Shown here: positions 47,867-60,014 of the stretch, piece after piece
How the letters are laid out: every line of letters starts with the position of its first letter
How positions within the stretch are numbered: the first letter of the stretch is position 1
Assembly: GCA_018970085.1 (NCBI GenBank)
Contig: JAGWXD010000007.1
Coordinates: 1-64,000, forward strand
Length of the DNA stretch: 64,000 bases
Direction of reading: 5' to 3'
Source: Cyanobacteria bacterium REEB459
GTDB taxonomy: Bacteria; Cyanobacteriota; Cyanobacteriia; Phormidesmidales; Phormidesmidaceae
Notes under the pieces: model-generated
Told to the model about the DNA's origin: nothing
Databases searched by the model: none
The model's input: only the letters and a program-made list of their open reading frames with translations
Program-made: the position numbers and the translations under genes

Positions 47867-48886
47867 ATGATCTCTACCCCACCCCTCTCTGCGGGACAAT
47901 TCTTTAATACATCGGATGGACGTTTTCAATCGGTCTACCTGGACTCCCCGCATTCTTTTAGCGGCCTGGAGGGACAGGACGTGATCGAGGGATTGACCCA
48001 AGCGCCCAAGGTATTGCCACCGAAATACTTTTACGACGATCGCGGTTCCCAACTATTTGAGCAGATCTGTGGCTTACCGGAGTACTACCCGACCCGGACC
48101 GAAGCCTGGATTTTACAGCACTATGCCCCGGAGATCGCCGAAATCACTGGCCCCTGCCAGCTAATTGAACTGGGCAGTGGCAGTTCCACCAAAACCCGGC
48201 TGCTGCTAGACGCCTACCAGGCCCAGGGCTATCCTCTCTATTACCAACCCATTGACGTAAGTGCGGGAATGCTAGCGGACAGCGCCGCCCAATTACTCAC
48301 CGACTACCCCACCCTGCAGGTGCAGGCCCTGGTGGGTACCTACGATCAGGCCCTAACCGCCTTGCCGCCGGCTTCTGCCCCTCGACTGCTGTTATTTCTA
48401 GGCAGCAGCCTGGGCAACTTTACCCCCCTGGAGTGCGACCAGTTTTTTGCTCAGGTCACCACCGTGCTGGAGCCGGGCGATTATTTTTTGTTAGGCATTG
48501 ACCTGCAAAAGGATAGGGCCATTCTGGAGGCGGCCTATAACGATCACCAGGGGGTGACGGCGGCCTTTAATGTGAATATGCTGGCCCATCTTAATTACCG
48601 CTTTGCCGGCAACTTTAACCTAGAGGCCTTTCACCACCAGGCTATTTATAACCCTGGTGACTGCCAGATTGAGATGTATTTGCACTGTCGGCAACCCCAG
48701 TCAGTGCGACTCAAAGCGCTGGATCTGAGTCTTGATCTAGCTAGGGGGGACAGCATCCGTACGGAGATTTCGCGTAAATTTAACCTGGAACACATGCAGG
48801 GGTACTTGCAAGCCCAGGGACTCTCTCCCTTACTAACCTGGGTTGATTCCCAGCACTGGTTTGGGATGATTCTTTGCCGCCTGTAG
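47867..48886 (+). CDS. egtD: L-histidine N-alpha-methyltransferase
   Basis: Methylates histidine three times with S-adenosylmethionine to give hercynine, the first step of ergothioneine synthesis. The 339-residue protein has the EgtD-family start PKYFYDDRGSQLFEQICGLP and EYYPTRTEAWIL, the SAM motif LIELGSGSSTKTRLLL, and FLGSSLGNFTPLECDQFF. The C-terminal part (IYNPGDCQIEMYLHCR) is also family-typical. It is followed after 64 bases by the sulfoxide synthase gene on the same strand, which strongly supports the pathway. Confidence 0.93.
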   Translation: MISTPPLSAGQFFNTSDGRFQSVYLDSPHSFSGLEGQDVIEGLTQAPKVLPPKYFYDDRGSQLFEQICGLPEYYPTRTEAWILQHYAPEIAEITGPCQLIELGSGSSTKTRLLLDAYQAQGYPLYYQPIDVSAGMLADSAAQLLTDYPTLQVQALVGTYDQALTALPPASAPRLLLFLGSSLGNFTPLECDQFFAQVTTVLEPGDYFLLGIDLQKDRAILEAAYNDHQGVTAAFNVNMLAHLNYRFAGNFNLEAFHHQAIYNPGDCQIEMYLHCRQPQSVRLKALDLSLDLARGDSIRTEISRKFNLEHMQGYLQAQGLSPLLTWVDSQHWFGMILCRL

Positions 48887-48950
48887 CCTGACTCATGGAA
48901 CTGACTTTAGGATCGCCTGCGGATAGTCCAGACCTGTCATCGGAGACATC

Positions 48951-50306
48951 ATGATCCAGACCACCCTGGCCCCGCCACTCCGCCTCGATCGCTGCGATCC
49001 TCATGCGCTCTTGGCCTATTACCAGCGAGCCTGGGCCCTGGAGGACCGGCTATGGCAAAGCCTGGTGGGGGATGAGCCCTTCTACCTCAATCCTGACCCC
49101 CTGCGCAATCTGCTGATTTTCTACCTGGGCCATACCGCGGTCTTTTACATCAACAAACTCCAGCGGGTGGGCCTCCTCCAGCAGGCTCTGCAACCAGCCT
49201 ATGAAGAGCTCTTTGCCGTGGGGGTTGACCCGGAAAAACCCGAGGACATTGCCGGCAAGGTCGCCCAACTGCGCCGCGCCCCCCTGCAGGGTGTCTGGGG
49301 CTATCGCCAAACCGTCTACCACAGCATCACCGATCTGATTTACCAGAGCGATTTCACCGCTCCCGTCACTCCTGGTCACCCCCTCTGGGCCCTGATCATG
49401 GCGATCGAGCATCAGTACATCCACATCGAAACCTCCTCCGTGCTGATTCGACAGTTGCCGGTGGCGATGGTCCGCCGCCCGGCCGATTGGGTGTACCTGC
49501 CGGGCAACGGTGAGGCGCGCCCCAACCCCCTGGTGGGGGTGCCAGCCGGGCCCGTGCGGCTGGGCAAACCCCAGGATGCCCCCAGCTACGGGTGGGATAT
49601 TGACTACGGCGATCTCCCCCTGCAGGTGGCCCCCTTTCGGATCAGTCAATACCAGATTACCAACGCAGAATTTCTCGCCTTTGTCCAGGCGGGGGGCTAC
49701 CAGACCCCCACCTACTGGTGCGCCGCCGCCTGGGGGTGGAAAACCCAGCCGGCCGTCACCCACCCCAAATTCTGGCTGGCGGATCCGCTAGCGCCGGGGG
49801 GCTATCGATACCGGGCCCTGTTTGATGAAATCCCCATGCCCTGGCAGTACCCGGTGGAGGTTAACTACCACGAGGCGGTGGCCTACTGTCGCTGGTACAA
49901 CGACGCTACCGGAGACTGCACCCGCCTGATGGGGGAGACGGAGTGGCAACGGGCGCTCTGGGGCGAGTCCCAACCGGTGACGGACTACAACCTGGACAGC
50001 CAGGTTGGCTCTCCCCACGCGGTGGGGTCCAGGCCCACCGCCCAAACCGCGATGGGCCTCTACGACCTGCGCGGCAATATCTGGGAGTGGCTGCGGGATC
50101 CCCTCACCCCCCTGCCCGGTTATCGGCCCCATCCCCTCTACGAAGACTACTCCGCCGGCTATTTTGATCAGCACCACCGCATGATGGCGGGCGGCTCCTG
50201 GATCACCTCTGGGGCCGGGGCCCTGCCCGACTATCGCAACTGGTTTCGGCCCAACTTCTATCAACACGCAGGCTTTCGCCTGGCGGCAGACTCTCCGCCC
50301 CCCTGA
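48951..50306 (+). CDS. egtB: EgtB/OvoA-type sulfoxide synthase, without methyltransferase domain
   Basis: A non-heme iron enzyme that links cysteine (or gamma-Glu-Cys) sulfur to the histidine ring with O2. The 451-residue protein has a DinB-like N-terminal half and an FGE-type C-terminal half. The three iron histidines are His61 in FYLGHTAVFYINKL and His154 and His158 in EHQYIHIETSS (HX3HXE). The FGE half ends at NWFRPNFYQHAGFRL. FYLGHTAVFYINKL and ETSSVLIRQLP are closer to OvoA than to actinobacterial EgtB. The C-terminal methyltransferase of OvoA is missing, and egtD lies directly upstream, so the substrate is probably hercynine and the product ergothioneine. Confidence 0.88.
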   Translation: MIQTTLAPPLRLDRCDPHALLAYYQRAWALEDRLWQSLVGDEPFYLNPDPLRNLLIFYLGHTAVFYINKLQRVGLLQQALQPAYEELFAVGVDPEKPEDIAGKVAQLRRAPLQGVWGYRQTVYHSITDLIYQSDFTAPVTPGHPLWALIMAIEHQYIHIETSSVLIRQLPVAMVRRPADWVYLPGNGEARPNPLVGVPAGPVRLGKPQDAPSYGWDIDYGDLPLQVAPFRISQYQITNAEFLAFVQAGGYQTPTYWCAAAWGWKTQPAVTHPKFWLADPLAPGGYRYRALFDEIPMPWQYPVEVNYHEAVAYCRWYNDATGDCTRLMGETEWQRALWGESQPVTDYNLDSQVGSPHAVGSRPTAQTAMGLYDLRGNIWEWLRDPLTPLPGYRPHPLYEDYSAGYFDQHHRMMAGGSWITSGAGALPDYRNWFRPNFYQHAGFRLAADSPPP

Positions 50307-50369: not shown

Positions 50370-51320
50370 CTAGCCCGACCCCGGAGCTGGCTTGGGAGTC
50401 AAGGTCAGGGACGGCAGATCCACCCCTAGGTTCTCGGGCACCTGGGGATGGACCCGTAAAATATACACCGCCTGTTCTGGTAGAGAAGCGGTGGTGTGGC
50501 TGGGGCTGAGGATGGGGTACCAATCCAGGGGGAAGCAGTCCCGGCTGTAAAGACTAAAGTAAAGGCGATGGGTCTGGAGTAGACCGGCGGGTAAATCCAG
50601 GGTGAGCCGTTCGCCCCGGTCTAAGGCACCGTAGAAAAAGTGGGTTTCGGGGTTGGGAACGGGCAGAAACACCCGCTTTACCCAAGCCTGGGGCAACCCC
50701 TGGCCCCAGCGCAGCAGGGGGTAGACGTAGAAGTTGAGGGCACTGTAAAGCCACCCCCGGCGGGCCGGGAGCTGGCGGTAGAACTGGTTAAAGTCCGGCG
50801 GGGCGTTAAGACTTTGGCTGGCCAGGGCTGGTTTGCCATCGACGCCAATGGCCGGTAACTGTACCGGGTCTCGCCAATTGTAGTGGCGCACCCCCACCAG
50901 GTAACGCCCGGCGGGCAGGGGAATGGTTACCTTGGTTTGATAGCGGGGGGTGGCCAGGGAACCGACGCTGGTTACCGTCTGATAACCCTGCAAGGTGTAG
51001 ACCACCGCAGTCCAACTGGGGGCCGATTGCCATAGGGACTCCAGATCTAGGCTGAGCTGGTGAGTAACGGTGAAGGGGCCAGCGATGGCAATTAGGGCAT
51101 GCAGGTTCCAGCGGGCCCGACTCATCACCCAAAGGAGCTTTAGGGGCGATCGCAGAAAGTCGGCATTGGTGACCTGCCACTCGGGTTGGGCCCGGCGATC
51201 GTTGGGATTGTAGTAGCGACTCACCAGGGTGAGAGTAGCCCTGACCAGCCTGGAAAACCCGAAGGAGAGTAGCCCCAGGGGTACCTCCCAGAGCAGGGTC
51301 AGCTTAGCCGGTAGGGCCAT
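50370..51320 (-). CDS. DUF6208-like protein of unknown function, olefin operon member
   Basis: A protein of 316 residues. It starts with a hydrophobic segment (LTLLWEVPLGLLSFGFSRLV) that may anchor it to a membrane; the rest is soluble and beta-rich (WTAVVYTLQGYQTVTSV, YLVGVRHYNWRDPVQLPAI, GALDRGERLTLDLPAGLL). The pattern fits what I recall of the cyanobacterial DUF6208 family; no function is known to me. Its ATG lies 17 bases inside the end of the polyketide synthase gene, so the two should be translated together. The position suggests a role in making, handling or exporting the alkene. There is no catalytic motif I can name. Confidence 0.7.
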   Translation of the reverse strand: MALPAKLTLLWEVPLGLLSFGFSRLVRATLTLVSRYYNPNDRRAQPEWQVTNADFLRSPLKLLWVMSRARWNLHALIAIAGPFTVTHQLSLDLESLWQSAPSWTAVVYTLQGYQTVTSVGSLATPRYQTKVTIPLPAGRYLVGVRHYNWRDPVQLPAIGVDGKPALASQSLNAPPDFNQFYRQLPARRGWLYSALNFYVYPLLRWGQGLPQAWVKRVFLPVPNPETHFFYGALDRGERLTLDLPAGLLQTHRLYFSLYSRDCFPLDWYPILSPSHTTASLPEQAVYILRVHPQVPENLGVDLPSLTLTPKPAPGSG

Positions 51321-54300
51321 GGGAACAGGTCTCCAGCATCATAGTTTGAATAATCCGGGCCAGGGCCAGGGGGGTTTCGGTGGGTAGGTCATGCCCCCCC
51401 GCCAGGGTCAGGGCTTGGGCCTGGGGCAGGTGGGTAGCTAGAAAGGCTAGATCCTCTGGTCGATTAAACTGGCTCTGCTGGCCTAATACCAGGGTGATGG
51501 GTAGGGTAATCTGGTCCAGCATCTGACCGTAGCTCTGGCGATCCAGCCAACCGGCCCCCAGGCTAAAGGGGGTGCGGGCCTGGAGACGTGGATCCCAGCG
51601 CCAGATCAGGCCCTGACCCTGGGGGGCAGGACAGGTGAGCCGTTCAGCTAGTTTCTCAGTTGCCAGGGTAGGGAGATGGGGTTTGAGGCTCTGGAGCCGC
51701 TGCACAGCGGCGGCCAGATTCTCCATTACCACCGGATTCACCGGAGTCGCCAGGTAATCCAGGTGGGTCACCAACTGGCTGGCGGTGGCGGGGGATGAGT
51801 CGGGAGCAGGCACCACCGGTTCCACCAGTACCAGGCCCCTAAACCGCTGGGGGCGCAGACTGGCCAACACGGCACTGAGTACGGCACCCATGGAATGGCC
51901 CACCAGTACCAGGGGGCGATCGCGGGCCAGTAGTTGACTCAACTGGTCGATGTCGGCGAGAAAATCCAGCAGTTGGTAGCCGCCGTCTGGCCCGGCATGG
52001 GCGGAACGACCATGGCCCCGGAGGTCGGGAGCGATCACATGGAAGCCCTGGGCCGCCAGGGAATCGGCGGTACCATCCCAACTGGCGCCCTGCTCTAGAA
52101 TGCCGTGCAGGCAGAGAATGGCCTCACCCTCCGCCGGTCCCCAGTGGCAGAGACAGGTATCTCGCCCCCGCAGGTGTAGACTCTCTTCCCGCAGGTTGGC
52201 CAGGGGCTGGTGGGTAGGGGCCGTATCGGGGCGATCGGAGGTTTCCTGGGGGAGGGGGTAGGCAAACTGGCGGGCGATCGCCTGGGTGCTAGAGGTTAGG
52301 GGCCGGGGTAACTGAAGAGTCTGCCACACCTGGGCCAGATTGACCTCGATGCGATCGCGCTGGCGAAAGTTAGGGTCATCCACCGCCAGGGACCTGGCCC
52401 GCACCCCATCGGTCATGCGCCGGCCTTCATAGGGGCTCAGCAGGGCGGCATTAAAGGGCAGTTCCAGGAAGGTGCAGAGGCGCTCCATCACTGCTTTAGG
52501 GTCGGCAACTAGATCTTCGTAGCGCATCACCTGATAACGACTGGAATCCACACCCTGCAAAAAGGTGGTAATGTTGCGGTTGCTGGTTTGCCACACCTGC
52601 TCCGCCAACCCGTAGGGATCGGCGCTAGTCAGATCAAAGATTTTGTGCATGCGATTGCGCACAAAGGAATCAATCACAGCGTAGGGGTGGCGCACTAGGT
52701 GAATGTACCTGGCTCCAGCAAAAATTTGCTCCGCCCGCTTCAAGGTCTCCAGGCTCAGGCTGTAGGTGGGCGATTTATCCACAAGGCACCGAGGAGCGGC
52801 GGTCTGCTGGAGCTTGCCGTAGACCTCTGCAATGGTCAGATGGTGCTGACTCCACTCTGACAGTAAGGTCTCCGCCTGGTCGGCGTCCAGGTGTAACAGT
52901 TCCATCACCGCTCGCTGTAATCCTTCCTGCAGGTAGCTGCTACCCAGAGCCTGTTGTTGGGCCTCCAGGGTATTGAAGGGCAGCAGGTGTAGTTCGGGCG
53001 GGCAGAACAGGTCAGGGTGGCCAGCTAGCATGACCCGCAGTAGGGTAGACCCTGAGCGAGGGGCAGACAGCAGAAAAATCATACTGTCGTTGCGCCGACT
53101 GGGGAGCGGATCTAAAGGAGCCAGGGCTTGCCAGGGGTGGGTAGGCAGGGTGTCGGCCCCCTCTGGGGGAGCCAGTTGCCCGGCGCCGGGCCGATCGGGC
53201 TGGAGGGATTCAACCCGGTGTTGGTCTGGGGGGAGAGTGGGCTCCAGCTCCCGGGCCAGGTATTGGGCCAGCTCTGCCAGGGTGGGGTGGGCCAGCACCT
53301 CTCGGGGATACAGTAGTAGTTGCAGGTCCTGTTTGCACAGGGCCAGTAAGTCCATGGTCATCAGGGAATCCAGACCCAGTTCCAGCAGGGGCCGATCCAT
53401 TGGTAAGGGGGTTTGGCTACCCATTACCTCCCCTACCTGGGTTTGCAGATACTGCTCCAGGGCCTGGATTCGCTCTCCCTCTGGCAGGGCCACCAGGCGC
53501 TGGCGGATGGGGGGTGGCTCGGTCCCCAAGCTGGTTAGGGCCGCCTCAGCCGATGGCTCTGGCCCCGTCGCCACCAGACTGAACACCGGCGGCAGAGTGG
53601 GCAGGTAGCGCTGTAGTCGGGACCAATCCAGGCTGGCGATGCCCACCTGGGAATAGGTCGGGGGAGTAGACAACAGTGTCCCTAACCAGGCCAGACCCTG
53701 GGCCGCTGGCATCAAGGCCATTCCTCGCTGCTGCCAGGCGATTTCAGACTGGGCCTGGGCGACCGCCATCCCCGCCCCCTGCCAGGCACCCCAACTGATG
53801 CTGAGGGCCGGTAGGTGCTGTTGCGATCGCCACTGGGCTAACCCATCTAAGCCCGCATTGCTGGCACTGTAATTACCCTGGCCCGGAGACCCCAAAAGGC
53901 CCGCCATGGAGGAAAACAAGACAAACCAATCCAGATCCAGGGACTGGGTAAGCTGGTGAAGATGCCAGGCCCCCAGCAGTTTAGGCGATAGGACTGCCTC
54001 AAAAGCCGCGGGGGTTTGACCAACCAGAAACCCATCCGCCAGCACCCCGGCGGCGTGAAAAATCCCCTTCAGGGGCGGGCCTTGGGTCTGGAGGCGAGCC
54101 AGCACAGCGGCCAGGGCACTACTGTCTGCCACATCCACAGCTTCTACAACAACCCTGGCCCCCCGGTCAGCTAGGACTGTCAACAGGGATTCCAGGTCGG
54201 TGGATGGGCCCCGTCGACTGAGGAGCACCAGATGACGAGCCCCCTGGTCAACCAACCAGCGGGCCAGTTGCTGGCCCAGGGCGCCGCTGCCGCCGGTAAT

Positions 54301-57300
54301 CAAGTAGGTGGCAGTGGCGTTAATGCCAGGCCGGGGCGATCGCCCGGGGTTCAACTCAGGCAACAGCCGTAGCCGCGGCACCCAGCCCTGGCCAGCCCGC
54401 AGGGCAATTTCATCCTCACCGGTTTGCCCCTGGATATGGGTGATTAAATCAACCAGGGCAGGGGTGGACTGGGGGCAAAGCCCCAGGTCCACCAGACCGC
54501 CCCAGAGTTCGGGATGCTCTAGCCGCAGGGTTCGTCCCAAGCCCCACAGAACCGTCTGCAGGGGAGCCCTGACCGGGTCCTGGGGGCCGATGGACTGGGC
54601 TCCCGTGGTGACCAGCCAGATTTTGGCGCTCCGGGACCCCTGGGCCAGGGCTTGAACCAGGCTGAGGACGGGTACTACGAGATCGGCCGCTGCCGCCGGG
54701 GGGCGATCGGGGGCCAGGTAGATCACCTGCCAGCTCAGCTCAGGGGCTGGCAGGGTGGATAACCAGGGGCCCCAGGGCTGGTCTGCCTGAGGGTGTAGGG
54801 GGCGATCAGGAAATGGCTGCGGCTGACCATCCTCTCTCCAGCCAACCCGTACTACTGTTGCCCCTGAGGCAGTCAAAACCTGCTCCAGGGCTGCTCCCAG
54901 AGCCTCTGCCCCCCCCACGATCAACCACTGGGCCGGGACGGCAGAGTCTGGCGACTGGGGGGGACAGGGTTGCCATTCCATCCGGTAGGCCTGGCCTGGC
55001 CCAGGGCTGACCGGGGAGGGGGGCAGCCGATCGATCCAGTAGCGCTGACGTTGAAAGGGATAGGTGGGCAGGGCCAATTTATGGCGGCCATAGGGTCGCT
55101 CAAACCCCTGCCAATCAATGGCCACTCCCTCTAGATATAACTGACTCAGGCTTTGGCCCAGAACAGTCCAGTCCTGGCGCTGTCGAGCCAGGGAGATATG
55201 CCAGTAACCATCATCCTGGGGCAGACATTGGGGTGCCAGGCCAGATAGTACCGGATGGGGGCCAATTTCTAGAAAGTGGCGATAACCCTGCTGGTAAAGG
55301 CTGGCGATACCCTCAGCGAAACGGACTGGTCGCCGGGCCTGGTGCCGCCAGTAGGTAGCATCGGGAATGGCTCCGGTGGCGAAAAACTGGCCGGTAAGAT
55401 TGGCTACCAGGGGGATTTGAGGGGGGTGAAAGTCCACCTGGCGGGCCAGATGCTCAAATAGATTAAGAATGGGATCCATTTGAGGTGAGTGAAAACCGTG
55501 GGAAACGGTCAGGGGAGTTACCCCCATCTGGCGGCCCTGGCAAACCTCCAGCAGGTCCTGGATGGCGGCCTGTTCTCCGGCCACCACCGTGTTGTTGGGG
55601 CCATTTAGGGTGGCGATCGCCACCGTCTCAGCGTAGGGGGCAATCAGGGCGGCCACCGTTTCGCCATCCGCCATGATCGCCGCCATCATGCCCTTGGCTG
55701 GCAAGGACTGCATCAACCGCCCCCGCTCAGCAATCAGTTTGAGGCCCGACTCCAGGTCAAACACCCCGGCCACGCAGGCTGCCACGTATTCCCCCAGGCT
55801 ATGGCCCAGAACTGCCGCCGGTTTTACCCCCCAGGACTGCCACAACTCCGCCAGGGCGTACTCCAGGGCAAACAGGGCGGGCTGGGTATAGGCAGTTTGG
55901 TGTAGGCGCGAGTCCTCCGGGGTATCGGGGTAAATTATCTGCAGTAGGGAATCCTGCAGGTAGGGCCGGAGAATTTCGTCACACTGCTCCAGGGTGGCCC
56001 GAAATTGGGGGTGGGTCTCGAACAGTTGGCGCCCCATGCCGGTATACTGACTGCCCTGGCCGGTGAACAGCCACACCAGGGGAGGAGCCTCAGGGCGACT
56101 GCTATGGCCGATCGCCAACCCCGGGGGAGAGGTTCCCGCTGCCACCGCCGCCAGGGACTCCACCAGGCTATCAGGCTGTTCGACCCAGGTGGCTAGGCGA
56201 TGGGCAAAGGCCGTACGGCCACTGTTGGCGGTGTGGCAGAGATCCCCCAGGGCCGCTGCCGGCAACGTCTTGAGCAGTTCACTATAGCGCCCAGCGAGCT
56301 GGCGCAGGGCGCCTTCGCTCCGGGCTGAGAGGGTGAACACATGGCCGGGGCGGTCGTCGCGGTGATCGCCCCTATCCGCATCTAACTGAGGTCCAGCCTG
56401 TAGCACCAGGTGGGCATTGGTGCCGCCAAAACCAAAGGAACTAACCCCGGCGATCGTCTGGGGAGAAAAGTCGGGCCAGGGCTCTAGCCCGGTTTGCACC
56501 CGCAGGGGCAACTGGTCAAAGGGAATATAGGGATTGGGTTGGTGAAAATGGAGACTGGGGACCCAGCTCTGGTGCTGTAGACACAGGGCTACCTTAATTA
56601 GGCCCGCCATGCCAGCGGCGGCCTCGGTGTGACCGATGTTGGTTTTAACCGAGCCAATCCGTAGGGGCTTAGAGTTCCCATGGCTGGCACCAAAGACCTG
56701 ACCCAGAGCCATAGCTTCAATCGGATCCCCCAGCAGGGTGCCGGTACCATGGGCCTCGATGTAACTGACCTGGGCCAGGGGCACCCGGGCTTGGCGGTAG
56801 GCCCGACGCAGTACAGCCGCCTGGGAGTCGCGGTTAGGGGCGGTGAGGCCATTGCTGCGGCCATCCTGATTAATTGCCCCGCCCCGAATCAGGGCATAGA
56901 TGCGATCGCCCTGGGCCAGGGCCTGGCTTAGGGGTTTTAGCACTACTACCCCGGCTCCCTCAGAGCGCACAAACCCGTTAGCATCAGCAGCAAAGGCCTT
57001 ACAGCGCCCCTCTGGAGAGAGGGCAGTGAGCTTGCTAAAGCCAATGGTGAGGGAAGGGGTGAGAATCAGGTTGACTCCAGCCGCCAAGGCCAGGGTGGAT
57101 TCCTTTTGCCACAGGCTCTGACAGGCCAGGTGCACCGCCACCAGGCTAGAAGAACAGGCTGTATCCACCGTTAGACTGGGACCCTGGAAGTTGAGCAGGT
57201 AGGAAATGCGATTAGCCAGCATGGTAGAAGCCAGACCGGTGGTGGTGTAGGGCCCGATTTGATCATCGCACTGGAGTAAAATCTGGCCATAGTCGAGGGT

Positions 57301-57777
57301 GGAAGCCCCAACAAATACCCCAGTTTGACTACCACTCAAGGCTTGGGGCAAAAGGGCACTATCCTCCAGTGCTTCCCACATTACCTCCAGTAACAGGCGC
57401 TGTTGGGGGTCCATATAGGGAGCTTCCCGGGGGGCAATGCCAAAAAATTCTGGATCAAACTGGTCAATATGCTCGAGAAAGCCCCCCTGTCGGCAATAGT
57501 GTTTGCCGGCCTGGTTGGGGTCGGCATCAAAAAACTCTTGCAAGGACCAGCGATCTCCCGGAATCTGTCCAACCCTATCTTCCCCCTGGCGCAGTAGTTG
57601 CCAATAGGCCGATAGACTGCTTGCCCCGGGAAACCGGCAGGCCATCCCCACAATGGCAATGGGTTCAAGCACGCCTTTGCGCTCCCCCAGTCGTACCTCT
57701 AACAGGCACCTTTGCTGGGGCGAAAGCTCCGAAATCCGTCGGGCCAGATCGTTCACAGGCCTACTCCCTAGTTCCAT
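51304..57777 (-). CDS. Olefin synthase, extension and off-loading protein (KS-AT-KR-ACP-ST-TE)
   Basis: A modular polyketide synthase of 2157 residues. Domains in order: ketosynthase (about 38-460; active Cys208 in VDTACSSS, EAHGTGTLLGDP, NIGHTEAA), acyltransferase (about 565-860; FTGQGSQYTGMG, Ser660 in GHSLGEY, HGFH suggesting malonyl), ketoreductase (about 1155-1400; TYLITGGSGALG), carrier protein (Ser1471 in LGLDSLMTMD), PAPS sulfotransferase (about 1564-1830; FLLSAPRSGSTLLRVML) and alpha/beta hydrolase thioesterase (about 1860-2150; GHSMGAVLSAVL). This is the CurM-like off-loading set of the Ols pathway, in which a sulfated 3-hydroxy acid loses CO2 and sulfate to leave a 1-alkene. Its gene overlaps both neighbours. 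Confidence 0.92.
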   Translation of the reverse strand: MELGSRPVNDLARRISELSPQQRCLLEVRLGERKGVLEPIAIVGMACRFPGASSLSAYWQLLRQGEDRVGQIPGDRWSLQEFFDADPNQAGKHYCRQGGFLEHIDQFDPEFFGIAPREAPYMDPQQRLLLEVMWEALEDSALLPQALSGSQTGVFVGASTLDYGQILLQCDDQIGPYTTTGLASTMLANRISYLLNFQGPSLTVDTACSSSLVAVHLACQSLWQKESTLALAAGVNLILTPSLTIGFSKLTALSPEGRCKAFAADANGFVRSEGAGVVVLKPLSQALAQGDRIYALIRGGAINQDGRSNGLTAPNRDSQAAVLRRAYRQARVPLAQVSYIEAHGTGTLLGDPIEAMALGQVFGASHGNSKPLRIGSVKTNIGHTEAAAGMAGLIKVALCLQHQSWVPSLHFHQPNPYIPFDQLPLRVQTGLEPWPDFSPQTIAGVSSFGFGGTNAHLVLQAGPQLDADRGDHRDDRPGHVFTLSARSEGALRQLAGRYSELLKTLPAAALGDLCHTANSGRTAFAHRLATWVEQPDSLVESLAAVAAGTSPPGLAIGHSSRPEAPPLVWLFTGQGSQYTGMGRQLFETHPQFRATLEQCDEILRPYLQDSLLQIIYPDTPEDSRLHQTAYTQPALFALEYALAELWQSWGVKPAAVLGHSLGEYVAACVAGVFDLESGLKLIAERGRLMQSLPAKGMMAAIMADGETVAALIAPYAETVAIATLNGPNNTVVAGEQAAIQDLLEVCQGRQMGVTPLTVSHGFHSPQMDPILNLFEHLARQVDFHPPQIPLVANLTGQFFATGAIPDATYWRHQARRPVRFAEGIASLYQQGYRHFLEIGPHPVLSGLAPQCLPQDDGYWHISLARQRQDWTVLGQSLSQLYLEGVAIDWQGFERPYGRHKLALPTYPFQRQRYWIDRLPPSPVSPGPGQAYRMEWQPCPPQSPDSAVPAQWLIVGGAEALGAALEQVLTASGATVVRVGWREDGQPQPFPDRPLHPQADQPWGPWLSTLPAPELSWQVIYLAPDRPPAAAADLVVPVLSLVQALAQGSRSAKIWLVTTGAQSIGPQDPVRAPLQTVLWGLGRTLRLEHPELWGGLVDLGLCPQSTPALVDLITHIQGQTGEDEIALRAGQGWVPRLRLLPELNPGRSPRPGINATATYLITGGSGALGQQLARWLVDQGARHLVLLSRRGPSTDLESLLTVLADRGARVVVEAVDVADSSALAAVLARLQTQGPPLKGIFHAAGVLADGFLVGQTPAAFEAVLSPKLLGAWHLHQLTQSLDLDWFVLFSSMAGLLGSPGQGNYSASNAGLDGLAQWRSQQHLPALSISWGAWQGAGMAVAQAQSEIAWQQRGMALMPAAQGLAWLGTLLSTPPTYSQVGIASLDWSRLQRYLPTLPPVFSLVATGPEPSAEAALTSLGTEPPPIRQRLVALPEGERIQALEQYLQTQVGEVMGSQTPLPMDRPLLELGLDSLMTMDLLALCKQDLQLLLYPREVLAHPTLAELAQYLARELEPTLPPDQHRVESLQPDRPGAGQLAPPEGADTLPTHPWQALAPLDPLPSRRNDSMIFLLSAPRSGSTLLRVMLAGHPDLFCPPELHLLPFNTLEAQQQALGSSYLQEGLQRAVMELLHLDADQAETLLSEWSQHHLTIAEVYGKLQQTAAPRCLVDKSPTYSLSLETLKRAEQIFAGARYIHLVRHPYAVIDSFVRNRMHKIFDLTSADPYGLAEQVWQTSNRNITTFLQGVDSSRYQVMRYEDLVADPKAVMERLCTFLELPFNAALLSPYEGRRMTDGVRARSLAVDDPNFRQRDRIEVNLAQVWQTLQLPRPLTSSTQAIARQFAYPLPQETSDRPDTAPTHQPLANLREESLHLRGRDTCLCHWGPAEGEAILCLHGILEQGASWDGTADSLAAQGFHVIAPDLRGHGRSAHAGPDGGYQLLDFLADIDQLSQLLARDRPLVLVGHSMGAVLSAVLASLRPQRFRGLVLVEPVVPAPDSSPATASQLVTHLDYLATPVNPVVMENLAAAVQRLQSLKPHLPTLATEKLAERLTCPAPQGQGLIWRWDPRLQARTPFSLGAGWLDRQSYGQMLDQITLPITLVLGQQSQFNRPEDLAFLATHLPQAQALTLAGGHDLPTETPLALARIIQTMMLETCSHGPTG

Positions 57778-60014
57778 TGAATGCTTGATGTGCCCAGCAG
57801 GGCTTGAATTTCCGCCGCTGAAAGCTGGGCGAGCTGATCGACTAATTGCTCTACCCGATCATCCCGGGCAGCCTCGGCCAGGTCCTCCGGCCAAGTGCCG
57901 GCGGGTTGGGCCTGGGCTTTAGCCAGGTAGGTAGAGAGGGCCTCAATGGTGGGATATTCGTAGGCCAGGGTAGGAGACAGGGGGATGCCCAGGGAGGATT
58001 GCAAGGCCTCCGCTAGTTCCACCGCCTTGAGGGAATCTAACCCGTAGTCCGCTAACGGCCGCTGCACATCAATGGCGGTGGTCGGCAGTTGCAGGGTTTG
58101 GGCTAACCAATCTACCATCCACCCCATCAGCCCTTGACGAGAGGGTTGGGGCTGGCTTGGGGCCGGGCCAGCCGGCTCGAGCGACTCTGGGGCTACCACT
58201 CCAGCCCCGCTATCGCCAGCCTGCCAGTGGTGTAGCACCTCCAGCTCACCGGCCAAAAAATCAGCCTTGCACTGATGGCGCTGAATTTTACCACTAGAGG
58301 TTTTGGCAATGGCGTTGGGCCGCAGCAGGGCGATCGCCCCAATCTGCACCTCGTGCTGCTCTGCCACCTGCCGCCGAATTGCGGCAAATACCGCGGCGCT
58401 ATCCACGGTACGCAGGGCGCTACGCTCCAGCTCTTGCACAATCACCAGTTGTTCCTGGTGGTCCAGGTTCAGCGCAAAGGCTGCACAGGCCCCTGGCCGC
58501 AAGGCAGGATGAGCTTGTGCCACCGTGGCTTCGATATCTTGAGGGTAGTGATTGCGCCCCCGGATAATAATTAAATCCTTGAGCCGGCCCGTGACATAGA
58601 GGTTGCCCTGATGCAGAAAGCCCAGGTCACCGGTACGCAGAAAGGGTCCCCCTGACCCCTCTGCTAGTACCCCATGGAAACTGTCTTGGGTGGCAGACTG
58701 ACGCTGCCAGTAGCCCTGGGCGATGCTGGGGGAGGGGCCTACCCAGATTTCTCCCACCCGGTGGGCGGGACAGGGGTGGTGAGTCTGGGGATCGACAATC
58801 CAAACCTGACCGGCAAGGGCCGGTTGACCACAGCTGACAACCTTGACCTGCCGGGCCGAAACCGCTGGGTCTAGATCGGGACTAGGCTGAGTCTGGCTGG
58901 GGGCATCGGCGGTAACCACCACCACTTGATTTTGCTCCAGTTTGGAGGCCTCCAGGAGCAGATGGGTAGGTGCCTGTCCCGGAGCCATGCCCGTCACCAT
59001 TAAGGTGGTTTCCGCCATTCCGTAGCAGGGGTAGAAAGCTTGTAGACGAAAGCCACTGGGGGCAAAGGCAGAGGCAAAGGCAGTGAGGGTGTCTTGGTGA
59101 ATGGGCTCGGCTCCGGTAAAGGCCAACTGCCAACTACTCAGATCTAGAGCCTGGCGTTGGTCAGGGGTAGTTTTGTGGATACAGAGGTCGTAGGCAAAGT
59201 TGGGCCCACCGCTGGTGGTGGCTCGATAGTGGGCGATCGCCTCTAACCAGCGGAGCGGCCGTTGCAAAAAGCTGACCGGTGACATCAGGGTCATTTCAGC
59301 CCCTACATAGAGGGGTTGCAGGATCCCCCCCACCAGTCCCATATCGTGGTACGGCGGTAGCCAGCAAACTCCCCGGCTGCTAGGGGTATTCCCAAAACAT
59401 CGACTGATTAAGTCTGAGTTGTGAAGCAGGTTGCCATGGCTAATCATGACGCCCTTAGGGGCGGCGGTGGAACCGGAGGTATATTGCAACAGGGCCAGGG
59501 TCTCTGCCGCCAGGGTAGGCGGTCGCCAATTAGCCCCCAGGGTGACCTCAATCCCGTCGGTATTGAGGCAGTAGAGGGGTTTTAATGGGGCTGACTGGGC
59601 CAGCTGACTGTGTAACTTGGGGAAGCTGCTGCCATCGGTAAGGGCAACCCGGGCACCGGTATCGGTGACAATCGCCTCAATTCGCTGCACTGACCGATTG
59701 GGGCGGGGGGGATAGGCGGGTACGGCGATCGCCCCGGCGTAGAGGCAGCCAAAGAAAGCGGCAATATAGCTCAGCCCTGGGGCGTAGAGCAGCAACACGG
59801 GCTGTTGTTGACAGCCCAGGTCCTGCAGTAGAGCAGCGATCGCCTGAGCTTGCTGGTGCAGGTCCAGGTAGGTGCAGGTTTGCTCACAGGAGGGCATACC
59901 CTCGGGTAGAAACCGGTAGATCAGACGGTGGGGACTTTGTTCAGTCCTCCAGCTCAGCAGATCTACGAGGGTTTGAGGCGAATTGATAGATTGGGGCATC
60001 TCCTGATTGACCAT
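57768..60014 (-). CDS. Olefin synthase, loading protein (FAAL-ACP)
   Basis: A fatty acyl-AMP ligase fused to an acyl carrier protein, 748 residues. The ligase (about 15-590) activates a free fatty acid; motifs are LLQYTSGSTAAPKGVMISHG, ACYPCYGMAETTLMV-like FYPCYGMAETTLMV, and LRTGDLGFLHQGNLYVTGRL. The carrier serine is in YGLDSLKAVELAEAL at about residue 660. A helical tail (RVEQLVDQLAQLSAAEIQAL) probably docks onto the partner synthase. In Synechococcus PCC 7002 the same domains are the N-terminus of one Ols chain; here they are a separate gene whose stop overlaps the next start by 10 bases. An ATG at 59999 is an alternative start. Confidence 0.9.
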   Translation of the reverse strand: MVNQEMPQSINSPQTLVDLLSWRTEQSPHRLIYRFLPEGMPSCEQTCTYLDLHQQAQAIAALLQDLGCQQQPVLLLYAPGLSYIAAFFGCLYAGAIAVPAYPPRPNRSVQRIEAIVTDTGARVALTDGSSFPKLHSQLAQSAPLKPLYCLNTDGIEVTLGANWRPPTLAAETLALLQYTSGSTAAPKGVMISHGNLLHNSDLISRCFGNTPSSRGVCWLPPYHDMGLVGGILQPLYVGAEMTLMSPVSFLQRPLRWLEAIAHYRATTSGGPNFAYDLCIHKTTPDQRQALDLSSWQLAFTGAEPIHQDTLTAFASAFAPSGFRLQAFYPCYGMAETTLMVTGMAPGQAPTHLLLEASKLEQNQVVVVTADAPSQTQPSPDLDPAVSARQVKVVSCGQPALAGQVWIVDPQTHHPCPAHRVGEIWVGPSPSIAQGYWQRQSATQDSFHGVLAEGSGGPFLRTGDLGFLHQGNLYVTGRLKDLIIIRGRNHYPQDIEATVAQAHPALRPGACAAFALNLDHQEQLVIVQELERSALRTVDSAAVFAAIRRQVAEQHEVQIGAIALLRPNAIAKTSSGKIQRHQCKADFLAGELEVLHHWQAGDSGAGVVAPESLEPAGPAPSQPQPSRQGLMGWMVDWLAQTLQLPTTAIDVQRPLADYGLDSLKAVELAEALQSSLGIPLSPTLAYEYPTIEALSTYLAKAQAQPAGTWPEDLAEAARDDRVEQLVDQLAQLSAAEIQALLGTSSIQWN

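Follow-up and report, generated by a model that had tools for sequence, protein, structure and literature searches.

The production of ergothioneine in cyanobacteria by EgtD together with a type IV EgtB (EgtB-IV) was reportedly described by Liao and Seebeck in 2017 (ChemBioChem 18:2115). In the literature that was searched, the term 'EgtB-IV' itself gave no match. The published cyanobacterial case is summarized in the available parts of PMC9516567, PMC10295655 and PMC11993508, and the accessible text of PMC9516567 words it as a recruitment from a different process. The initial annotation of the DNA analyzed here had linked the locus to published cyanobacterial work, a link that the portions of PMC9516567 and PMC10295655 at hand support.

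The window, which is the whole stretch of 64,000 nucleotides that was analyzed, belongs to a genome of 3.24 Mb in 102 contigs with a completeness of 99.84 and a contamination of 3.16. It carries egtD (47867..48886, + strand), predicted to encode an L-histidine N-alpha-trimethyltransferase of 339 amino acids, followed head to tail on the same strand and after a gap of 64 bp by egtB-IV (48951..50306, +), predicted to encode a type IV iron-dependent sulfoxide synthase of 451 amino acids without a methyltransferase domain; both open reading frames lie where the initial annotation had placed them. Very probably the two genes form an ergothioneine operon of the type already published for cyanobacteria. 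The basis for this reading is the family identity, the tree position, the conserved ligands, the acceptor-pocket residues, and the co-occurrence and complementarity involving EgtD, while the substrates, the product and the lyase step of the pathway are what we infer. The two genes are presumably transcribed together; a promoter and terminator scan near the pair gave no signal above shuffles, which counts against the operon. The same window contains frames that were read by eye as the ribosomal proteins L7/L12, L10, L1 and L11 and as NusG, together with an L10 leader, which makes the surroundings of the pair ordinary chromosomal DNA. A gene for a DUF6208 protein (249 bits; 50370-51320, -) is convergent with egtB-IV and separates it from a polyketide synthase gene (51304-57777, -) whose product has a KS-AT-KR-ACP-sulfotransferase-hydrolase layout and whose neighbor (57768-60014, -) encodes an AMP-ligase-ACP protein. 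We take this layout to resemble a two-gene olefin synthase, possibly for terminal alkenes.

The first protein of the pair is EgtD, as had been claimed from the letters alone. It scores 397 bits with TIGR03438 (cut-off 290.9) and 392 bits with Pfam Methyltransf_33, and it matches the PDB EgtD entry 4uy6 with an E value of 2e-76. In a hand-counted alignment its N184, M270, E300 and S302 fall on Asn166, Met252, Glu282 and Ser284 of M. smegmatis EgtD, residues that we assume to have functional roles. A second EgtD-like gene in the source genome (L129) reaches 62-65 bits, below the cut-off, and was left uncounted.

The second protein is, judged by its sequence, a type IV EgtB. Its nearest PDB entries are 8vih and 8vig, both named 'Sulfoxide synthase EgtB-IV' (E 6e-150 and 3e-140; identity 51.3% and 46.8%), ahead of the OvoA entry 8khq (3e-90; 36.6%), and its two other matches in its own genome are weak (E 5e-6 and 6e-5), so that this genome combines EgtD with no EgtB of another type. 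It stays under the cut-offs of the EgtB model TIGR03440 (169 bits against 360) and of the SenA model NF041186 (165 against 420). TIGR04344, the model for the N-terminal part of OvoA, gives it 498 bits, which is over the cut-off of 400. This last score is a point against our reading, and on the family database alone the protein would be named an ovothiol enzyme. The description as an OvoA-like synthase holds for the sequence segments quoted in its favor and for the TIGR04344 match, but the best PDB matches are EgtB-IV, and in the best trees the protein falls in the EgtB-IV clade beside OvoA. The Pfam match to the FGE domain covers residues 194-445 of 451 and the protein ends after this domain, as the initial annotation had stated. 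The C-terminal 4-mercaptohistidine methyltransferase of OvoA is absent from it; a tblastn search with four OvoA C-termini (E<=0.01) found no remnant of this domain in the window, and the methyltransferase model TIGR04345 had no match over cut-off in the genome (best 21 bits against 170). In the comparison OvoA proteins the methyltransferase model matched five of five, four of them over cut-off and the one from Streptomyces with 135 bits against 170.

The position of the protein among EgtB and OvoA was examined with IQ-TREE on 60 hand-picked rows (26 of the 63 EgtB-IV, 13 OvoA, 5 intermediate and 16 other EgtB), from which SenA (L140) and a 789-aa Streptomyces ORF (L220) were omitted. EgtB-IV forms one clade (26 rows, UFBoot/SH-aLRT 100/99) that contains the window protein and both PDB EgtB-IV chains and is sister to OvoA (13 rows, 100/98). 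Outside the two there is a single-domain group, here called 'mid' (5 rows, 94/79), and then the other EgtB (16 rows, 100/99). A quick tree of 102 rows, retained from 117 at an identity under 93%, gave the same grouping. The row nearest to the window protein comes from an uncultured Synechococcales MAG (L004, 65%), followed by Pseudanabaena-type rows, and the window protein and L004 make up their own branch within EgtB-IV. A place inside actinobacterial EgtB, which the initial annotation had named as a refuting result, is not what the tree gives; actinobacterial EgtB is represented in it by one row (Nonomuraea). The 'mid' group consists of L106, L107 and L125 (from G041, G053 and G044) and of L137 and L218 (Caballeronia), lies between EgtB and EgtB-IV/OvoA and has the Asn-Trp pair described below; L106, L107 and L137, the members that were tested, are below both family cut-offs. 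Among the Cyanobacteriota that carry it, EgtD is a direct neighbor in G053, lies at a distance of 2.8 kb in G044 and sits on another contig in G041.

Residues of the active site were compared in an alignment of 63 EgtB-IV rows, including the window protein and two PDB chains, with OvoA, 'mid' and 42 other rows (41 EgtB and one SenA). The first predicted iron ligand is His61 (codon 49131..49133, +, in GHTAV), a role that we assume from alignment with known EgtB; this position is His in 63/63 EgtB-IV, 8/8 OvoA, 4/4 'mid' and 42/42 other rows. The other two predicted ligands, His154 and His158 of an H-X3-H motif (HQYIH, codons 49410..49424, +), are both His in all 63 EgtB-IV rows and in every OvoA, 'mid' and other row. 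Tyr397 (codon 50139..50141, +), Tyr in 63/63 EgtB-IV rows, aligns with Y378 of the 4x8b chain, which is Tyr377 if a one-residue offset is assumed, and is predicted to correspond to the catalytic tyrosines Tyr377 (M. thermoresistibile EgtB) and Tyr417 (E. tasmaniensis OvoA) given in the available part of PMC10903977. Asn430-Trp431 (codons 50238..50243, +), aligned with N415/W416 of the 4x8b chain, is the predicted hercynine-binding pair. The site is Asn-Trp in 63/63 EgtB-IV and 4/4 'mid' rows and Asn followed by Trp (20) or Phe (21) in 41 of the 42 other rows, 41 being the number that cover it. In OvoA it is Tyr/Phe followed by Ala/His in 13/13, read from 13 rows since four of the eight OvoA rows in the large alignment are too short there. 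The corresponding Asn414 and Trp415 of M. thermoresistibile EgtB are taken here as the hercynine contacts, and its Asp416 and Arg420 as the contacts to gamma-Glu-Cys. At the latter two positions EgtB-IV and OvoA both have phenylalanine (Phe432 and Phe436). With an acceptor side that is EgtB-like and a donor side that is OvoA-like, hercynine and cysteine are the predicted substrates, and sulfoxidation of hercynine at C2 by EgtB-IV would agree with these residues. OvoA itself couples hercynine and cysteine at C2, according to the accessible part of PMC9103826, so little change would be needed in either direction.

In the proposed pathway EgtD would trimethylate histidine to hercynine. EgtB-IV, acting as an Fe(II)/three-His enzyme with O2, would then couple a thiol, which is most likely free cysteine, through its sulfur to the imidazole C2 of hercynine and give a hercynyl-cysteine sulfoxide, from which an unlinked putative PLP C-S lyase would release ergothioneine. 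The likely product is ergothioneine, from hercynine and probably cysteine; this product had been suggested in the initial annotation and is supported by the EgtB-IV PDB matches, the tree and the complementarity around EgtD.

This complementarity was seen in a survey of 292 Cyanobacteriota genomes, drawn evenly and with the window's own among them. TIGR04344 was passed in 47 of these genomes, by 44 single-domain frames (441-505 aa) and by three frames of 816-819 aa outside the window's class, so this model does not discriminate OvoA from EgtB-IV. All 44 single-domain proteins are over its ovoA_Nterm equivalog cut-off, and automatic annotation could call them ovothiol enzymes. EgtD is over cut-off in 44/44 of the single-domain EgtB-IV genomes; it lies less than 2 kb from EgtB-IV on the same strand in 31 (egtB-IV first in 17, egtD first in 14), at 3.1 to 19.3 kb in three, and unlinked in ten. 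Among 19 related loci egtD is directly upstream in 18/18 that are full relatives, with L022, the nineteenth, excluded for a match over 28 residues only. When the 119 genomes with EgtD are sorted by their sulfoxide synthase (G030 counted as having EgtD though the gene is cut by a stop codon), 43 have EgtB-IV only, 75 another EgtB only, one has both and none has neither. The single genome with both is G048 (L028, L056), an assembly of ~530 contigs. The 77 genomes counted as having 'other EgtB' were picked manually by a best non-EgtB-IV match of ~230 bits or more, with the addition of five that have a split match (G085, G241, G089, G179 and G044), and they include G111, which is without EgtD and outside the 119. 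The own cut-off of TIGR03440 (360 bits) is passed in only 33/292 genomes, so many of the 77 were called below it; in the 102-row tree the 39 non-EgtB-IV rows (38 EgtB, one SenA), which likewise include many sub-cut-off matches, fall on one side of a branch (99). In the window's own family both sampled genomes (G170 and G215) carry another EgtB type. The share of EgtB-IV in this survey is 44/119 EgtD genomes, compared with 'a small group of cyanobacteria' in the wording found in the available text of PMC9516567.

Another explanation for the locus is that an OvoA-like enzyme without a methyltransferase joins cysteine to histidine at C5 and makes 5-thiohistidine, with EgtD serving some other step. 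The match to TIGR04344, the sister position of OvoA and the shared Phe432 and Phe436 would fit such an enzyme, but it is very improbable given that EgtD accompanies EgtB-IV in 44/44 genomes and that the complementarity with other EgtB is near-perfect; the Asn430-Trp431 pair in 63/63 EgtB-IV rows and the lack of an ovoA_Cterm match over cut-off in the genome speak against it as well.

Full-length OvoA with the methyltransferase was found in 3/18 genomes of another Cyanobacteriota class (L023, L024 and L100, in G053, G021 and G026), a class that we guess to be non-photosynthetic; EgtD is under cut-off or absent in two of these three genomes and unlinked in one. In Bacteroidota 2/345 genomes have a frame over the TIGR04344 cut-off, each of them long (705-706 aa), and no match to OvoA was found in viral contigs or phages. 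In Sulfurovum mangrovi (L217, 2995-6253) ovoA is directly followed by a gene for a PatB family C-S lyase, its likely OvoB partner.

With ergothioneine as the likely product, the thiol donor and the lyase have to be considered. The statement that EgtC and EgtE are not present stands for EgtE, for which the best match in the whole genome reaches 65 bits against a cut-off of 400, and fails for EgtC, because the genome has an EgtC-family gene on a different contig (C63; TIGR03442 283 bits, cut-off 218.65). This gene counts against our reading of the donor: it would suit a gamma-glutamyl donor, and direct use of cysteine, which had been proposed and is plausible on the donor-side residues, is on this account only likely. 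Synechocystis PCC 6803 presumably has another EgtB type. A variant that is compatible with the ergothioneine operon is that the sulfur comes from gamma-glutamylcysteine or glutathione and that the unlinked EgtC-family amidohydrolase trims the product; the TIGR03442 score agrees with it, and so does the accessible part of PMC10295655, which reports that cyanobacteria producing ergothioneine have egtC and that Synechocystis PCC 6803 takes glutathione as its donor. We find it unlikely, since the positions of Asp416 and Arg420 are Phe and Phe as in the cysteine-using OvoA (PMC10903977, in the part available), the EgtC-family protein matches 3mdn, another class II amidotransferase, with 128 bits and EgtC 4zfj with only 68 bits, and no ergothioneine gene was recognized by eye beside it.

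The suggested look for a PLP lyase elsewhere in the genome gave a homologue of the L-cysteine/cystine C-S lyase C-DES (L144, G000:C55:30532-31752; 1elq, 422 bits), which is no more than a candidate for the lyase of the pathway. Neither EgtE nor a PatB-type lyase is over cut-off in the genome (best PatB-type match 142 bits against 340), and this too weighs against the proposed pathway. The best match to the EgtE model (L141) was rejected as EgtE as it passes the SufS model. The L144 type occurs at E<=1e-40 in 137/292 genomes, some of them small (1.6-1.9 Mb, G107 and G114 for example) and lacking any match to EgtD, so the profile evidence does not single L144 out as the lyase.

One may ask whether EgtD and EgtB-IV were inherited together. 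An initial EgtD tree, in which linked genes predominated, was near-clean in this respect, and the pattern broke down when 10 EgtDs from EgtB-IV genomes and 10 from other genomes were added. In the resulting 59-row quick tree, many branches of which are weak, seven of the ten unlinked EgtDs of EgtB-IV genomes (G125, G068, G167, G255, G262, G195 and G118) sit among EgtDs whose genomes carry other EgtB, and strict co-inheritance was therefore rejected. The other three (G119, G056 and G151) group with linked EgtDs, one linked EgtD (G213) also lies outside, and the starred branches force at least three partner changes. From this quick tree and its many weak branches it would appear that EgtB-IV displaced other EgtB more than once, with the resident EgtD staying.

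A further question is whether EgtB-IV lost a methyltransferase domain or OvoA gained one. The loss, which the initial annotation had asserted, is not borne out by the best tree, in which EgtB-IV and OvoA are sister clades and not nested; with single-domain groups outside them, OvoA may have gained the domain. Counted by hand on this tree, a gain by OvoA together with a pocket change makes two events and an OvoA-like ancestor makes four (the domain gained and lost again, the pocket changed and restored). In a strict polarity test of 11 differing columns the outgroups match EgtB-IV in five, OvoA in two and neither in three, and in one only the 'mid' group matches OvoA; a looser test gave 8 EgtB-IV-like, 8 OvoA-like and 14 neither. 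Overall these columns have no clear lean, and the Asn-Trp pair speaks for an EgtB-like ancestor. One possible history, which we advance tentatively at slightly short of even chances, is that the common ancestor was a single-domain hercynine enzyme, that EgtB-IV keeps this state, that OvoA exchanged the Asn-Trp of its pocket for Tyr/Phe-Ala/His and acquired a methyltransferase by fusion, and that EgtB-IV later displaced other EgtB in several lineages beside the resident EgtD. If so, the published reading of a recruitment from another pathway would be turned round. The opposite history derives EgtB-IV from an OvoA through loss of the methyltransferase domain and recovery of the hercynine pocket; it concerns the origin and not the function, and we consider it possible, though somewhat less likely than not. 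OvoA is the nearest relative of EgtB-IV, full-length OvoA exists in the same phylum, and a position of EgtB-IV inside OvoA, beside the OvoA of Streptomyces and of the other Cyanobacteriota class, has an AU p value of 0.11 in the 60-row setting and of 0.108 with 'mid' as the only outgroup (32 of the 60 rows) and is not rejected. However, OvoA is monophyletic in the best trees (100/98; 97/96 with 'mid' only), nesting with the remaining OvoA gives p 0.042 and 0.0625 in the same two settings, which falls short of a firm rejection, four events are required, and no methyltransferase remnant is seen in the window. The AU values are weakened by both OvoA subgroups having been chosen after the tree was seen, and OvoA sampling is thin (13 rows, no eukaryote). 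The present trees and AU tests do not settle this direction of evolution, which can be tested.

By comparison with known systems, the window protein belongs to the same superfamily as SenA (selenoneine synthase) and OvsA (selenoxide synthase) and differs from them in its low NF041186 score and in PDB matches weaker than those to EgtB-IV and OvoA. With EgtB of the other types (4x8b, 6qki) it shares the sequence family, the His ligands, the acceptor-pocket Asn and the EgtD partner, yet the identity is 21-28% in the sampled rows, the clade is separate (100/99) and the TIGR03440 cut-off is missed. The 119 EgtD genomes, of which one has two types, suggest that one type of sulfoxide synthase can stand in for another across cyanobacteria. 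OvoA (5-histidylcysteine sulfoxide synthase, 8khq) is the sister clade with the same ligands, catalytic Tyr and Phe432/Phe436, but has the C-terminal methyltransferase and Tyr/Phe-Ala/His instead of Asn-Trp; a curated family model nevertheless labels EgtB-IV enzymes as ovothiol synthase. The closest system is cyanobacterial EgtB-IV with EgtD (PDB 8vig-8vil), with which the pair shares the clade, the single-domain length, the conserved residues and the EgtD partner. The window protein differs from it in its 51% identity to 8vih and its own branch with L004, and no functional difference was seen. EgtB-IV thereby gains one divergent member, and the pair in the window is a somewhat divergent addition to the already published cyanobacterial EgtD/EgtB-IV ergothioneine pathway.
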